From: Phycisphaerales bacterium
Lineage (GTDB): Bacteria; Planctomycetota; Phycisphaerae; Phycisphaerales; UBA1924
Assembly: GCA_029260495.1 (NCBI GenBank)
Contig: JAJDDD010000016.1
Coordinates: forward strand, 124,001-188,000
Direction of reading: 5' to 3'
DNA: 64,000 bases
Made by a program: the position numbers and the translations under genes
Notes under the pieces: generated by a model
The model's database searches: none
What the model saw: the letters and a program-made list of their open reading frames with translations, nothing else
Told to the model about the DNA's origin: nothing
Shown: positions 51,518 through 64,000 of the stretch, piece after piece
Position numbering within the stretch: the stretch's first letter is position 1
Layout: each line of letters begins with the position of its first letter

Positions 51518-51584
51518 CTTTTTGTTTGGCTTGGGCAGCTGAAGAGTGGAGCGCGGGAGTTTCTGAGCAATCGAAGTGATTGGG

Positions 51585-52352
51585 ATGTCAAAGCCATTAG
51601 CCGCCATCATTCTTGCTGCGGGCAAGGGCACGCGGATGAAGAGCGATCTGCCGAAGGTTGCGCATGAGGTCGCTGGTGCGCCGATGGTGCGCTGGGTGGT
51701 CGCTGCGTGTCGGCAGGCGGGGTGCGAGCAAATCTCGCTGGTGGTTGGTCATCGGCAGGAGATCGTGCGGGAGATTTTTTCTGACGATGCGGATGACATC
51801 ATTTTCATCGAGCAGACTGAGCAACTCGGGACGGGGCATGCGGTCATGTGCGCCAAGAGCGCACTGGCGGATTATGTCGGAGATGTCCTGGTGCTGTGCG
51901 GCGATGGTCCATTGATTCGCGGCGCCACGATTGGGCGCCTTGTCGAGCGACATCAGAGATCGGAAGCGATTTGTACTATGGCGACCGCGACGGTCGAGAA
52001 CGCAGCCGGGTACGGGCGTGTTCTGCGCGATCAGGCAGGCGTTTTTGTCGGCATTGTCGAAGAGAAAAACGCGACACCCGAGCAGCGGGAGATTCGTGAG
52101 ATCAATCCGAGTTATTACTGCTTTGAACGGGAGGCGCTCTTTGGCGCGCTTGAGCGTGTCGGGAAGGATGCGATTTCAGGCGAATACTATGTCACAGAGG
52201 CGCCGACGATTTTGCTTCAGGATGGCGCCGGCGTAGATGTTGTAGACATTGTGCCTGAGGATGAAGTGCATTCGATCAACACAGTCGAGCAGCTCGAGCA
52301 AGTCGCACAGATTCTTCTCGCGCGTGCGAATCAACATGAGGTGGGCGCCTGA
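51585..52352 (+). CDS. UDP-GlcNAc pyrophosphorylase-type nucleotidyltransferase (GlmU N-terminal domain only)
   Basis: 255 residues from the ATG at 51585; an upstream GTG at 51576 is possible. The signature L-A-A-G-K-G-T-R-M-K-S-D-L-P-K-V, followed by Q-L-G-T-G-H-A-V, L-C-G-D-G-P-L and G-Y-G-R-V, is that of the GlmU uridyltransferase domain, which makes UDP-GlcNAc from UTP and GlcNAc-1-phosphate. The C-terminal left-handed beta-helix acetyltransferase of bifunctional GlmU is absent. The acetyltransferase step must come from elsewhere. The gene overlaps prs by one base (TGATG). Confidence 0.88.
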   Translation: MSKPLAAIILAAGKGTRMKSDLPKVAHEVAGAPMVRWVVAACRQAGCEQISLVVGHRQEIVREIFSDDADDIIFIEQTEQLGTGHAVMCAKSALADYVGDVLVLCGDGPLIRGATIGRLVERHQRSEAICTMATATVENAAGYGRVLRDQAGVFVGIVEEKNATPEQREIREINPSYYCFEREALFGALERVGKDAISGEYYVTEAPTILLQDGAGVDVVDIVPEDEVHSINTVEQLEQVAQILLARANQHEVGA

Positions 52353-57040: not shown

Positions 57041-58822
57041 CTAAAAAGTTCTCATGACGAGCGGTGTGTCAAGCGTGGTGATGACCTTGTTGCCAATCGC
57101 GAACTCGACAACGCTAACGCCGGCGGTGACATCGAAGATGAGTGTCAGTTTCTGATCGGTGCGTGTGCGGCTGAGGTTTGGCACCTCACGCAGGGCTCGC
57201 ACAGGCTGATCGGGCGTAACGCGAATATCGACGGTGTCGCTTTCTTCGTAGATCCAGCCGATCGCCTGATAGCGTTGGCCCAGGTTGTCGATCAGTGTGG
57301 GGGCGCCGGCGACATCCTGCGCCATTTGCACAGACTTGCCGAAAAGGGAAAAAGCGCTCTCCAGGCCAACATCGACGAGAACGGTCTTAACGCCAGGGCG
57401 TTGAGCTAACGATGCGACACGAAACTTGCTCGATATATTGCGTTGCGTCAGTGAAGAGCGGCTGAACTTATGGTGTCCGCCGGAGATCTCGTTCTCTTCG
57501 TTGACTTCAAGATTGCCCTTCGACTGACGATGGAAGGCGATGGGGATGGCATTGCTCTGGCGTATTGCGGACCTCGGACCTCCTGCTGTGGGAGTCGTTC
57601 CTGATGCGCTGGTTGTGGAGGTTCGGTCAAGTCCCGTGTTGGGACCGGTTGGTCCCGAGGCGCTCTCCGCGTTAATGAGCGCGAGCGAGCGAATCGCTTC
57701 GTCGCGAGCTTGAGGCGTGAATCCGTCAGCAGGAGCAACGGAGATCGGCGGGATCGAAGCGCTTGGCACACGGACATTTTTCACGAGAACATCGGTGACT
57801 GTCGCGCCCGCAGGAATGGGAAACTCAAAACCCATGGTTGTTTGGGAAGCGCCACCGACGGAGGCGACGAACACCCCCTGGCCATCAAAGCGGAAGCGTC
57901 CATATTGCAGCGCATCGCCGGCGGTCTGCGTGATGACAGCGATGGCGTGGGCGCCAAATGGTTGACGAGAGGCGTCCACGCCAACGACGCGGATTTGCCC
58001 GGGCCCCATCACGACCTGGCCGCTCTTCTCGCGTGCTCCAGCATTGAGTTTGAGCACGACACCGAACAGTTCGGTCGCGCCAGGTGAGAGAGCCTCGCCG
58101 GAGATATCAAATACCCGCTGGGGGCCGAGCAGGTCGCCGCTCTGCCGATCGACCGTGAACGAATCATTGAAGAGATCGCTACCGGCGACGGTGTATTGAC
58201 CGATCACGTCAAAGTCAGCCCGTTTGTACGCAGTGCGGCTGTTGTCATTGAAGGTTTGCCGAAGAGCGGCCGCTTGCAGATGCACATCGGGTTGGCGCTC
58301 AGCAAGAGGGGAGCCGGTTGAAAGGGAGGCGACGCTCAGCCATTCGTAGACGCGAACCGTAAGCATGTCGGCCGGGAGCCAGAGCTTGTCCTTTCGTGCG
58401 ATATATCCCTGCGAGGCTGTCTCGACGGCCTGATAACCGAGGATGGCAGGCTCAACGCGCATGAAGCCGGCGCCGAGGACGAGTATGCCAACACTGATGA
58501 CGCCGGTAGCGGCGCCGAATAGGCCGCCGCCGACGAAGTTAGAGGTGTCGTCAAGTTCGATATTAGCGATGATGACCTTGTCAGTGATGAGTCGAAGGAC
58601 GAAGAGGGAAGCGAGGAAGGGGAGAATCAGGCCCAGCGTCCACGCGCCATCTTCCCAGAGGCCAAGGAGAAGTTTGTTGGTGACAAACTCCCAGACGCCG
58701 AAGGCAATCGCGCCGGCGACGAGCGTGCAAACAAACTGGATAAGCGCGGAAAAAAGCCCCTTCGCAGTCCACATGTATGCGATGAGCAGGATGGCGGCGA
58801 TAACGACGATGTTGAGGATCAT
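57041..58822 (-). CDS. CvpA-like membrane protein with a large extracytoplasmic domain
   Basis: 593 residues. The first about 130 form four transmembrane helices in the CvpA layout: an N-terminal helix, A-K-G-L-F-S-A-L, F-G-V-W-E-F, and G-G-G-L-F-G-A-A-T-G. About 460 polar residues follow, predicted to be outside the membrane, with beta-rich sequence, a Ser/Thr/Gly-rich linker near 395-420, and no known catalytic motif. CvpA proteins are needed for colicin V export and envelope stability in enterobacteria, but their role is unclear. It follows the GspE-like gene by 28 bases on the same strand and may be co-transcribed with it. Confidence 0.75.
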   Translation of the reverse strand: MILNIVVIAAILLIAYMWTAKGLFSALIQFVCTLVAGAIAFGVWEFVTNKLLLGLWEDGAWTLGLILPFLASLFVLRLITDKVIIANIELDDTSNFVGGGLFGAATGVISVGILVLGAGFMRVEPAILGYQAVETASQGYIARKDKLWLPADMLTVRVYEWLSVASLSTGSPLAERQPDVHLQAAALRQTFNDNSRTAYKRADFDVIGQYTVAGSDLFNDSFTVDRQSGDLLGPQRVFDISGEALSPGATELFGVVLKLNAGAREKSGQVVMGPGQIRVVGVDASRQPFGAHAIAVITQTAGDALQYGRFRFDGQGVFVASVGGASQTTMGFEFPIPAGATVTDVLVKNVRVPSASIPPISVAPADGFTPQARDEAIRSLALINAESASGPTGPNTGLDRTSTTSASGTTPTAGGPRSAIRQSNAIPIAFHRQSKGNLEVNEENEISGGHHKFSRSSLTQRNISSKFRVASLAQRPGVKTVLVDVGLESAFSLFGKSVQMAQDVAGAPTLIDNLGQRYQAIGWIYEESDTVDIRVTPDQPVRALREVPNLSRTRTDQKLTLIFDVTAGVSVVEFAIGNKVITTLDTPLVMRTF

Positions 58823-58850
58823 CAGCAGACTCCTCGGCGCTGGTGTTTAT

Positions 58851-60605
58851 TCATGACGTGGCCGCAGCCTTATCTTTTTTCTTCGGGGGAGATGTGACGC
58901 GTGCAACTTCTTCAACGCTGGTGAGACCCCGGACCGCTTTCTGCACAGAAGCCTCTTGAATGGAAGGTAATCGTTTCTTGCGGAGCGCCGATCGCAGGCC
59001 GGCGAGATCACCCGCGCGAATCGCGGCTCGGGCGTCATCGTCAATGACGAAGATTTCGAAGACGCCTTCCTGGCCGAAGAAGCCAGCCCCTTTACAGACC
59101 GGACAGACCTCGGGCTTGTTCTTGATGAGCACTTGTCCACCTTTTTTATAGAGATGGCTCACCTTGCCCGCAGGCACGCCGAGCTTCTTAAGCAGCTCAG
59201 GCGAAGGTGCGTATTCGACTCGGCAGTTCAAGCAAAGCTTGCGCACGAGACGCTGAGCGATCACTCCATGCAGCGATGTGGCGGCCTTCTCCAAATCGCC
59301 AACCGCTTTGAGGTAGGTCTGCACAGCGACGAGCGCGTTTTCAGCCCGCAGGCCGACATAGGTGCGCGTTCGCTCATGATCCGCTTGCGAGATTTCGATC
59401 GCGGTGGTCGCATCCGGAAGTTCCGCGACGGCGACGACATCAGGATCGCGGCGGAGGATTGAGCGGACTGTGGTGCTGTACTCTGCGTCGGCGAAAGGAT
59501 CAAACACGTTCTGGCGGACGCCCTCAATCGGGGCAGCGGGTTCCGTTTCGATGGACTGGACGTTGGAGGTGTACGGATCCGCAGCCCGCAACAGCGCGTA
59601 GAGCGTGGCCGTGCGACCGTTCATCGGAGGGGCAGCGACGAGAACAACGCCCTGGCTTTCTTGGATGATCGATTTCAGTTCACCCATCTGGGAATCAAGC
59701 ACACCGAGTTCATCAATATTGAAATGAACCTGCTCAGCGGGGTCAAAGAGGATCGTCAGATTGACCCCCTTGGAGCCGCCCGCGGTGGTGATGCGCAGCG
59801 TGCGGCGCCCGCCTGCCTGCTCAAGGCCGAGATCAGCACGAAGTTTTCGGCGACGGTCCGCGATATCAAGCCCGGAAGCGCCCTTGAAGAAGTCGATGAT
59901 CGCCAGCGCCTGATCCGACGGGAGCGGATCAAGCATTTGACGGACGCCATCAACCATAAGACCCATGGCGTACTTGCCGTTATCACCAGCAGGTGCGATG
60001 TCGATGCGTGAAGCGCGGGCGTCGACCGCTTCACGAAGGACAGTTTCGGCGGCGACGCGGATCTGGTATTCAGCGCTTTCGCGCGGCGGGACAGCCACGA
60101 GGCCGGCCGGCCCGCGGAACTCAAGCGAGACACTCCTCTGTAGCTTTTCCTTTTGGCGATCTGCGCGAGCCTGCTTTATATTATCGAGGTCGAACGACCA
60201 CTTCTGGCCCGCCGGGACTCGGCTGTCAGTGTTGCGTTTGAGGGCGTAGAGGACAAGGTCAGCGCCAAGGATGCCCAAGAACGCCGGCGCTGCAATCCAG
60301 AAGCTCGGCAGAAGCAAGCCGGTAGCAATGGCGCCGACAGCGAACACAACGTGGATGAGGTTCCACTTGCGGCGGCCGAGATAGAAACGCGCAGCGTCCT
60401 TGTCGTAGATCGTCGCGACGACCCAGGCCCATCCGACAAAGCCCGCAAACAGCACAAGAGGTTTCCACCACGAAACCAGGACGAGCGATTCCCCGCCGGC
60501 GTTGGAAGAAAAGCCGCCTCCCGCTCCTGCGCCACCGCCTCCACCTCCGCGCAGCTGCGCCAAAGAGAGGAGTGGGTCCAAGGTGGAAACGAGCGTGTCG
60601 ATCAT
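58851..60605 (-). CDS. GspE/PilB-like protein with membrane N-terminus and degenerate ATPase motifs
   Basis: 584 residues. A Gly-rich N-terminus precedes three hydrophobic helices (about 41-65, 83-100 and 103-122), unusual for this family. The N1E-like domain has A-S-R-I-D-I-A-P (198-205) and G-L-M-V-D-G-V-R. The P-loop position reads A-A-P-P-M-N-G-R-T (324-332): the catalytic Lys is Arg331 and the first Gly is lost. Walker B is R-R-D-P-D-V-V-A-V-A-E-L-P-D (385-398) in place of V-G-E-I-R-D. The tetra-Cys zinc site survives (C458, C461, C501, C504). ATP hydrolysis is therefore doubtful. It lies between pilT and the CvpA-like gene. Confidence 0.85.
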   Translation of the reverse strand: MIDTLVSTLDPLLSLAQLRGGGGGGAGAGGGFSSNAGGESLVLVSWWKPLVLFAGFVGWAWVVATIYDKDAARFYLGRRKWNLIHVVFAVGAIATGLLLPSFWIAAPAFLGILGADLVLYALKRNTDSRVPAGQKWSFDLDNIKQARADRQKEKLQRSVSLEFRGPAGLVAVPPRESAEYQIRVAAETVLREAVDARASRIDIAPAGDNGKYAMGLMVDGVRQMLDPLPSDQALAIIDFFKGASGLDIADRRRKLRADLGLEQAGGRRTLRITTAGGSKGVNLTILFDPAEQVHFNIDELGVLDSQMGELKSIIQESQGVVLVAAPPMNGRTATLYALLRAADPYTSNVQSIETEPAAPIEGVRQNVFDPFADAEYSTTVRSILRRDPDVVAVAELPDATTAIEISQADHERTRTYVGLRAENALVAVQTYLKAVGDLEKAATSLHGVIAQRLVRKLCLNCRVEYAPSPELLKKLGVPAGKVSHLYKKGGQVLIKNKPEVCPVCKGAGFFGQEGVFEIFVIDDDARAAIRAGDLAGLRSALRKKRLPSIQEASVQKAVRGLTSVEEVARVTSPPKKKDKAAATS

Positions 60606-60725
60606 CGTGGTCGGCCTGCAAAGTGCGATTTGGTTGTCAGCCCGCTTAGCGCGGACTCCACCTTCTCGCGAGTAAGTGCGAAACGCCGCACGGAGCGCTC
60701 TCCGAGGGCAGAGTCCTGGAGAAAA

Positions 60726-61886
60726 TCAGCCGATTCCCTTCAGCCTCATCTGGAGCTCGTCGGGGTTGGGAGTCGCCTCCATCGCGACGCGTGTGTGAAT
60801 GTATTCCTCTTCGACGAGCTTCACAAGTGAGCCGTTAAAGTCAATCATGCCCGCCTGCTGGGCCTCAGTGGAGTTGATGACCTGATGCAACTCGCCTTCG
60901 CGGCCTTCGAGGATGTACTTTCTGCAGGCCGGTGTGTTAATAAGAATTTCCAAAGCCGGGATTCGCGGGATGTTCTCATGCAGCGTCGGCATGAGCTTCT
61001 GGTAGACAATCGCGCGCATCTGATACGCCAGGATCTTTCGCACCTGCTCTCGCTCTTCCGGCGGGAAGAGGTCGTAGATGCGCTGGAACGTCTGCGGAGC
61101 TGAGGACGCATGGATAGTGCCGAAAACGAGGTGACCCGTCTCTGCGGCATGAAGCGCAGCTTCAAAGGTTTCAGCGTCGCGCATTTCACCGACGAGCACA
61201 ATGTCAGGATTCTCGCGCACCAAAGCACGGAGCGCGAGCTTAAAGTCCAGACAATCAATGCCAATCTCGCGTTGATTGATGGTGGCTTTCTTATCCTCAA
61301 AGATGTATTCAATGGGGTCTTCAATCGTGATGATGTGAACGGGCTTGCGCTCATTGATGTAGTTAATCATCGACGCAATCGTTGTTGACTTACCCGAGCC
61401 TGTCACGCCTGCGAGTAGTACGATTCCTTGCGGCTGCAAGGCGATTTCAGCCATGATTTCAGGAAGGTACAGGTCCTCAAAACGCTTGACATCGCTCGTG
61501 ATGAGTCGGGCAGCGACGGAGAGCTTGCCCCGCGCCTGGAAGAGATTGACACGGAAACGATGCCCCTCGTCATAGTCGTAGGCGAAATCGACAGAGCCAT
61601 TTCTGTGCAGATCACCCCACTGCTCTTCATTAAGGATGTGCTTGGCGATATCGACGAACTCAGCGAAGGGGATCGCGTCCGTATCCAGTTGCTTGAGCGC
61701 GCCGCGCAGGCGAATAACGGGTGGTTTGCCTGTCTTCAGCAACAGGTCCGAGGCGCCGAACTTGATCGTCGCCTTAAGGAAGTTTCCGAAGCGCGTCTTG
61801 TGCGGGTCATGCTTCTGATCGGGATCGAGCGTGACATGCTGTTGAATGGGCGTCACGTTGGCGCCAGTGTCCAGTGTGCTGCTCAT
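60726..61886 (-). CDS. pilT: Twitching motility / retraction ATPase PilT
   Basis: 386 residues from the ATG at 61886, which has GGAGAG about 9 bases upstream; the 43-residue in-frame extension is not needed. Walker A G-V-T-G-S-G-K-S (160-167), the Asp box I-T-I-E-D-P-I-E-Y, Walker B D-I-V-L-V-G-E-M-R-D and the His box T-G-H-L-V-F-G-T-I-H are all intact. An A-I-V-Y-Q-K-L follows. PilT powers pilus retraction. It sits 120 bases upstream of the degenerate GspE-like gene on the same strand. Confidence 0.94.
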   Translation of the reverse strand: MSSTLDTGANVTPIQQHVTLDPDQKHDPHKTRFGNFLKATIKFGASDLLLKTGKPPVIRLRGALKQLDTDAIPFAEFVDIAKHILNEEQWGDLHRNGSVDFAYDYDEGHRFRVNLFQARGKLSVAARLITSDVKRFEDLYLPEIMAEIALQPQGIVLLAGVTGSGKSTTIASMINYINERKPVHIITIEDPIEYIFEDKKATINQREIGIDCLDFKLALRALVRENPDIVLVGEMRDAETFEAALHAAETGHLVFGTIHASSAPQTFQRIYDLFPPEEREQVRKILAYQMRAIVYQKLMPTLHENIPRIPALEILINTPACRKYILEGREGELHQVINSTEAQQAGMIDFNGSLVKLVEEEYIHTRVAMEATPNPDELQMRLKGIG

Positions 61887-62167: not shown

Positions 62168-62902
62168 ATGCTCAGCGTGATTGCCCCCGTTGGAGCCAAC
62201 TCAGGGACGAATTTTCTACTCGCTCAGCTCAGCGGGAGCGCCGTCGGTGCGCAGGCAGTACGGAGCATCGCTGCCCCCACGAAAGCTGGGGCAGACTCCC
62301 TCCGGCCCGAAGAGATCGACACCCTCCATCCGGCGGATCGCTCCTATGACGCCGAAGCAGGTGGGCGCTCTCTCCGAGGCGGAGCCGAGCCGGTCGTTTC
62401 GACCGCCTTTCAGCGCAATGCAGACGGTGACGAAGCAAGCTTCTCAAGCCGGGCTGATGACCTCACGCAGGAGGAGCGCCAGCAGGTTGAAAAACTTCGT
62501 CTGCGTGATTCAGAGGTGCGCCAGCATGAAGCGGCCCACAAGGCGGCAGCAGGGGGGCTCGCGGTCGGCGGGCCCAGCTTTGAGTACCAGGCAGGACCGG
62601 ACGGCAAACGCTATGCAGTTGGCGGGCATGTTCAGGTAGACACATCACCCGGCGCGACGCCCGAGGAGACACTCCAGAAAGCTCAGCAAATCCAGCGGGC
62701 TGCGCTGGCGCCTGGGGATCCATCTTCCGCAGATCGAGCGGTCGCAGCCAAGGCGGCGCGCATGGCGGCGGACGCCCAGCAGGAGCTCGCCAGTTCTCAC
62801 AAGAACAGCCAAGACGAACGCGGATCTCAAGGCGTCGATGAGCCCAAGCCCGAAGAGACGCCGGCTGTCAACGCATCGATTGGAATCGATCTCTTCGCAT
62901 AG
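62168..62902 (+). CDS. SprA-related putative metalloprotease
   Basis: 244 residues. The region about 95-225 has the SprA-related / CatD-like signature: D-S-E-V-R-Q-H-E-A-A-H-K-A-A, with the HEAAH motif at 120-124, then F-E-Y-Q-A-G-P-D-G-K-R-Y-A-V-G-G, V-D-T-S-P-G-A-T-P-E-E-T, and A-A-L-A-P-G-D-P-S. The first 95 residues are low-complexity and the tail ends I-G-I-D-L-F-A. HExxH suggests zinc peptidase activity, which is not proven for the family. It begins with TTG, GTG or ATG uncertainty; the ATG at 62168 gives this length. Confidence 0.82.
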   Translation: MLSVIAPVGANSGTNFLLAQLSGSAVGAQAVRSIAAPTKAGADSLRPEEIDTLHPADRSYDAEAGGRSLRGGAEPVVSTAFQRNADGDEASFSSRADDLTQEERQQVEKLRLRDSEVRQHEAAHKAAAGGLAVGGPSFEYQAGPDGKRYAVGGHVQVDTSPGATPEETLQKAQQIQRAALAPGDPSSADRAVAAKAARMAADAQQELASSHKNSQDERGSQGVDEPKPEETPAVNASIGIDLFA

Positions 62903-62995: not shown

Positions 62996-64000
62996 TCAAC
63001 GAAAAATCAACGCTCGCGGCGATGCCAGAAGCACCGGCTCATTACGAAGATGAAGCAGCGCGTTCATCGAATCGCGCAGGCCTGGCCAGGCCCGCGGGCC
63101 GACAAGTTCGCGCAACAATCCCGCGCCCTCGGTAATGATGGCGCTGTGGCTGTTGTCGAGACCCGGCGCGCGAACCGTTCCTGGGATCATGGACTCAAAA
63201 ATCTCCGCCAGACTCTTCGGCGGGGGAAAGTTGACGACGTCATAGGCGCCCTTCGCGAGATTGAGTTCACGCGCGAGGTCATTAATCGCGGTGTCGATGC
63301 CGCCAATTTTGTCGGCCATATTCATCGCGATCGCTTTGTCACCGGAGAAGAGACGTCCCTCAGCGGTCTGCGAGATATCAATGTCAGGGCGACCTGCCTT
63401 GACTCGAGCGACGAACTGTTCATACGTCTCAGCCATGCGCTCACGCACGAGCCCGCGCTGCTCGGGCGTCCAAGGAATGAGTGTGCTCGCGAGGCTCGCC
63501 ATGGGTCCGCGTCCACGGGGAATGACATTGATATTGAGTTTTTCGTACGCCCCTCCAAGGACATACTTGCCGCCGACGACACCGATGGAGCCCACGATGC
63601 TCGAAGGGTTGACATAGATGCGGTCGCCGGAGACAGCAATGTAATAACCGCCCGACGCCGCCATCGAGCCGACAGAAATCCAAACTGGCTTCTTTTTCGC
63701 TACGCGATTCACGCCAAGCCAGATGGATTCACTCGCGATAGCGCTTCCGCCGGGCGAGTCAATGCGAACGATGAGTCCCCTTATCTTCGGCTCATGTTCA
63801 ATGTCCGCCAGCGCTTCGCGCATCGTCAAACTTCCAACAGAGCCCGAGCCTCCGAGAATTCCACCTTCAGTGGATTCACCATCGATGATCGCGCCATTGA
63901 CGTGAAGCACCGCGATGGAGTTTCTGCGCACCGCATTGTCCGGCTCCTCCATGAGCATCTGGAAGATGGCAAATGGGTTCGACATCTCCATGAGTGAGCC
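62996..64000 (-). CDS. sppA: Signal peptide peptidase SppA (5'-truncated by window edge)
   Basis: A membrane-associated serine peptidase (S49) that digests released signal peptides. The frame is open to the last base on the minus strand, so the N-terminus lies outside; a Met at 63991 is not necessarily the start. Visible parts: V-L-H-V-N-G-A-I, R-G-L-I-V-R-I-D-S-P-G-G, the nucleophile region G-S-M-A-A-S-G-G-Y-Y-I-A, Y-V-N-P-S-S-I-V-G-S-I-G-V, and the Lys general-base candidate in Y-E-K-L-N-I. No transmembrane anchor is seen in the visible part. Confidence 0.9.
   Translation of the reverse strand, partial: GSLMEMSNPFAIFQMLMEEPDNAVRRNSIAVLHVNGAIIDGESTEGGILGGSGSVGSLTMREALADIEHEPKIRGLIVRIDSPGGSAIASESIWLGVNRVAKKKPVWISVGSMAASGGYYIAVSGDRIYVNPSSIVGSIGVVGGKYVLGGAYEKLNINVIPRGRGPMASLASTLIPWTPEQRGLVRERMAETYEQFVARVKAGRPDIDISQTAEGRLFSGDKAIAMNMADKIGGIDTAINDLARELNLAKGAYDVVNFPPPKSLAEIFESMIPGTVRAPGLDNSHSAIITEGAGLLRELVGPRAWPGLRDSMNALLHLRNEPVLLASPRALIFR

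Follow-up and report, generated by a model that had tools for sequence, protein, structure and literature searches.

What does a protein of the GspE/PilB motor family do when its ATP site has degenerated, its N terminus enters the membrane and its neighbors are pilT and a cvpA-like gene? Three genes in the window (the whole 64,000-nucleotide stretch of DNA that was analysed) raise this question. A preliminary description of the sequence had read them as an intact pilT, a membrane-embedded and probably inactive GspE/PilB relative, and a CvpA-like protein with an outer domain. The features are as follows.

60726–61886, minus strand: pilT (386 aa; TIGR01420 match, Walker A intact)
58851–60605, minus strand: GspE-like gene, encoding a membrane-anchored GspE/PilB-type probable pseudo-ATPase (584 aa; Pfam T2SSE match)
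60231–60467, minus strand: three predicted N-terminal membrane helices of the GspE-like protein (residues ~47–125; hydropathy and AF2)
59595–59636, minus strand: degenerate P-loop APPMNGRTATLY of the GspE-like protein (residues ~324–337; alignment with 8 intact paralogs and 60 orthologs)
59094–59234, minus strand: tetra-Cys zinc module C458/C461/C501/C504 of the GspE-like protein (ortholog conservation)
57041–58822, minus strand: CvpA-like gene (593 aa; Colicin_V match in orthologs, TM segments)

The genes run on the minus strand in the order pilT, GspE-like and cvpA-like, with gaps of 120 bp and then of 28 bp, the latter as first described. Promoter and terminator scans gave no more sites than shuffled sequence. 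Searches for defense systems returned weak, generic ATPase matches for PilT and none for the GspE-like and CvpA-like proteins. An SprA-related (PF12118) gene (62168–62902, plus strand) lies divergent from pilT and is adjoined by an S49 peptidase gene (62996–63991, minus strand). Elsewhere in the window, a GlmU-like nucleotidyltransferase of only 258 aa (51576–52352, plus strand) matches the Pfam NTP-transferase domain; the C-terminal hexapeptide acetyltransferase was not found in it.

Profile and structure-model comparisons place the GspE-like protein in the GspE/PilB family by homology, with a predicted PilB/GspE core fold. It matches PF00437/T2SSE from residue 183 (E=3e-42; 144.9 bits against a gathering score of 24.9), and it stays under the curated cut-offs for both GspE (TIGR02533, 175.8 bits against 630) and PilB (TIGR02538, 145.6 bits against 676). 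An AF2 model whose input was restricted to the window protein and related loci has a core with pLDDT ~85, and Foldseek pairs this core with the structures of PilF, PilB and GspE (5oiu being the best match, E ~1e-32; TM over the target reaches 0.87). The two-C-terminal-domain core fold, the tetra-Cys motif and Arg455 are shared with GspE/PilB ATPases (PF00437) such as Geobacter PilB, Thermus PilF and Vibrio EpsE/GspE. The N-terminal region differs, because those proteins have soluble domains where the GspE-like protein has three predicted membrane helices (~47–67, 83–98 and 100–125, from hydropathy and from AF2, whose confidence is low here). No Pfam domain above cut-off was found in residues 1–180. 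The membrane-embedded character proposed at the outset is upheld and extends to the whole class of the window.

The ATP site can be read against Geobacter PilB, from which the residue roles are taken (PMC5424180) and whose numbering appears to coincide with that of the GspE-like protein. In PilB, the Asp-box Glu binds Mg, Glu395 is catalytic, and Arg455 makes an inter-subunit contact (PMC5424180). The P-loop APPMNGRTATLY reads APPMNGRT, whereas the eight ordinary GspE/PilB proteins that the genome encodes elsewhere are intact and all have GPTGSGK[ST]. Lys331, Arg286, Glu357, Gly394, Thr411, His413 and His420 are lost, with Arg286 replaced by Leu, the Asp-box Glu357 by Ala and the Walker B Gly394 by Ala. 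Compared with the GspE/PilB ATPases, the protein has lost the Walker A Lys, the His box, the Asp-box Glu and the Arg fingers. Gly330, Thr332, Glu353, Arg271, Glu395, Arg455 and the tetra-Cys motif are kept. These alignments bear out the replacement of the P-loop Lys by Arg and the survival of the zinc tetra-Cys (C458/C461/C501/C504), both noted in the preliminary description; its claim of an altered Walker B is right only in part, because Gly394 is indeed Ala but the catalytic Glu395 is present in the window protein.

This condition is common to the class. The Walker A Lys is absent in 88/88 orthologs of the window's class, namely 60 class loci, 3 more, the window, and a further 24 chosen as the most divergent or as earlier scored missing. 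A full-length match to the family profile occurs in 283 of 298 class genomes (223/231 of the best genomes), nearly always as a single copy; six of the 15 genomes below threshold give truncated matches, and in at least two of these six the match starts at the first bases of a contig. The protein is under purifying selection (against the nearest relative, dN is 0.30 and dS, which is saturated, is 1.5). Judged by its residues, the GspE-like protein of this class is a pseudo-ATPase, probably inactive, as had been suspected for the window protein.

Relatives outside the class indicate how this state arose. Elsewhere in the phylum, full-length matches that include the membrane region were found in 23 genomes (families f50, 16; f57, 3; f91, 2; f71, 1; f100, 1). 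None of the catalytic residues is missing from the 14 loci examined in f50, f57 and f71, and the Walker A Lys is lost in three loci of f91 and f100 (L201, L203 and L204). The intact anchored proteins of f50, f57 and f71 share with the window protein the membrane region, a CvpA-type neighbor and, in part, a pilT neighbor; they differ in their complete active site and in a short CvpA protein (~190–250 aa). In the best tree, all anchored proteins lie to the same side of a modestly supported branch (82/71), the proteins of the window's class form one clade (100/100), and those of f91 and f100 group with f50 (89/66), so that two losses of the Lys are counted (best tree, 2 changes). The loss in f91 and f100 is thus possibly independent of that in the window's class; a single loss in one clade is not rejected (p-AU 0.305). 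Because in other families this anchored protein still has its full ATPase site, the sequences indicate at least one conversion, perhaps two, of a working anchored motor into a pseudo-ATPase, which argues for an old change of function rather than decay. A narrow sample of 28 genomes of Verrucomicrobia, Kiritimatiellae, Omnitrophota and similar groups gave only ordinary PilB matches missing the membrane region.

Among 81 loci of the anchored protein, the gene immediately downstream is cvpA in 78 and the gene immediately upstream is pilT in 66; 63 loci have both. Synteny, proposed earlier as a check, is therefore broad, and a chance neighborhood is ruled out by the 81 loci; no other gene family was found to recur in most of them. 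The PilT is intact, as first described: it exceeds the TIGR01420 cut-off (E=1e-120; 403 bits against 319), its Walker A reads GVTGSGKST, and the Walker A Lys is kept in 69/69 linked PilTs.

The CvpA-like protein has four N-terminal TM segments (residues 1 to ~120), a domain probably shared with the CvpA/Colicin V production family (PF02674), followed by a C-terminal part of ~460 aa; such an extra part, of ~220–480 aa, sets the proteins of the window's class apart from that family. The window protein itself matches Colicin_V weakly (E=0.058; 13.8 bits against a gathering score of 29.3), 46/49 of its orthologs match at E<0.1 (best 6e-11), and the short CvpA partners in two loci (L194 and L198) exceed the PF02674 cut-off. 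No relative of a solved structure was found for the C-terminal ~460 residues, and a single-sequence AF2 model of the protein has a pLDDT of 37. The size of the proposed outer domain is thus as described; its placement outside the cytoplasm is weakly suggested by charge.

The reading that best fits these observations, to which a probability of roughly 0.5 can be given, is that an inert membrane-anchored ring serves PilT as a docking site and links it to the CvpA-like protein. The middle protein would descend from a working membrane-anchored GspE/PilB-type ATPase and, as a pseudo-ATPase in the window's class, would still form a ring, as is suggested by the retention of Arg455 and of the zinc module; zinc binding is needed for the function of EpsE (PMC5061722). 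The ring would be held at the inner membrane by its own helices, in place of recruitment of the GspL/PilM type, and would be unable to burn ATP. Cytoplasmic PilT would dock on it and supply motion, and either the docking or the motion would be passed on to the CvpA-like membrane partner. A precedent is the PilT/PilU retraction pair, in which PilU needs PilT but not PilT ATPase activity and the motor partner is required even when catalytically dead (PMC13142100). In both cases, two motor-family proteins are encoded together, and the PilT/PilU pair shows that a dead partner can still be needed; here, the putatively dead partner is PilB-type and membrane-integral, and its predicted inactivity is natural and class-wide. 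Of the role first suggested, a scaffold or dominant partner of a pilus or secretion motor, the scaffold or adaptor is partly supported, the dominant partner stays conjectural, and the trio could be tied to no particular pilus or secretion system.

A less likely alternative is that the trio serves a conventional type IV pilus or type II system whose genes lie elsewhere in the genome; the pseudo-ATPase would park or stabilize this second PilT at a PilC/GspF platform and so tune retraction. In its favor, PilC/GspF genes occur in five contig regions of the genome, which also has five secretin matches and three PilM-like genes; PilT is known to partner platforms of the PilC/GspF type. However, none of these PilC/GspF, secretin or PilM-like genes is near the trio, which with the lack of any other recurrent neighbor confirms that this is not a standard pilus operon; this also sets the trio apart from the GspE/PilB ATPases compared above, no PilC/GspF, pilin or secretin gene being nearby here (the profile search covered PilC/GspF, secretins and PilM). 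Moreover, the trio PilT is of a different subtype: a quick tree separates the PilTs of trio loci from the T4P-linked PilTs that this genome also encodes (SH-aLRT 96). A second, long-branched PilT-like protein of this genome (contig C9, 613015–613884; L214) falls with the trio-type PilTs. Taken together, the sequence comparisons favor the trio as an old module of the phylum, distinct from this genome's type IV pilus genes.

The module may have a second live motor in many genomes of the class, a PilB-type ATPase with an FHA domain. In the genome of the window, such a protein is encoded on contig C5 (~57241–58836; L209:9236–11008); its N terminus carries the FHA domain, its Walker motifs are intact, and no PilC/GspF gene is near it. 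In two loci (L163 and L164), pilT and the pseudo-ATPase gene are separated by a relative of this protein, and in two genomes with a displaced pilT (G002 and G130), the match positions put such a relative right next to that pilT. Judged by score, 33/49 class genomes have one (25 of the 33 with the FHA part matched) versus 1/31 others. As a universal replacement motor it is ruled out, being found in only 33/49 class genomes.

A more speculative extension, also judged improbable, is a PilT-powered trans-envelope machine confined to these bacteria and without a pilin of its own, in which PilT would drive the dead, membrane-integral GspE-type ring and, through it, would move the CvpA-like protein's C-terminal part; planctomycete uptake would be one example. 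Planctomycetes have pili-like fibers at crater-shaped complexes, and the fibers bind dextran (PMC5394234); nothing in the present data links the trio to these fibers or craters.

The GspE-like and CvpA-like proteins might instead form an envelope pair of their own, with the pilT linkage historical or regulatory. Since pilT adjacency is looser than cvpA adjacency (66 against 78 loci), the core unit could be these two proteins, with PilT secondary. The distribution of the PilT subtype, however, makes this distinctly doubtful. Its profile scores 547–618 bits in 15/15 genomes with the anchored protein, among them 12/12 tested genomes in which pilT lies away from, or not directly beside, the anchored gene, and scores >500 bits occur in only 4/17 tested genomes without the anchored protein (Fisher test ignoring relatedness, p=7e-6; 6e-5 without the profile genomes). 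The link to PilT therefore looks functional even where adjacency has been lost.

It is more improbable still that the GspE-like protein binds or hydrolyzes nucleotide through a deviant site that uses the P-loop Arg and the retained Glu395. Among 64 class orthologs, Gly330 is invariant, as are Arg455 and Cys501 (each tetra-Cys residue is kept in 61–64), Thr/Ser332 and Glu353 remain conserved, and Arg occupies the Lys331 position in 27. The position of Glu395 holds Glu in 28 and Asp in 16; because the catalytic Glu survives in those 28, loss of all nucleotide binding is not certain. Against this reading, residues other than Arg at the Lys position include Leu, Val, Gly and Ser, and Arg286, Glu357 and the two His-box His residues are either lost or not conserved; the 64 orthologs show unconstrained variation at the Arg fingers, the His box and the Asp box. 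Finally, local decay or a sequencing error has a negligible chance and is ruled out by the 88/88 orthologs that share the loss in open full-length frames, none with an intact Walker A Lys at this locus, and by a dN well below dS.

In the open-access literature searched, neither an inactive or membrane-integral member of the GspE/PilB family nor the trio module was found described. A gene that is near-core across the whole class here encodes a protein that, to judge from its sequence, is both inactive and membrane-integral, while close relatives keep a complete active site. This makes the family a natural experiment in how a pilus-type motor becomes a scaffold. The trio also offers a specific candidate machine, accessible to gene deletion, in bacteria whose envelope structures and uptake of macromolecules call for explanation.
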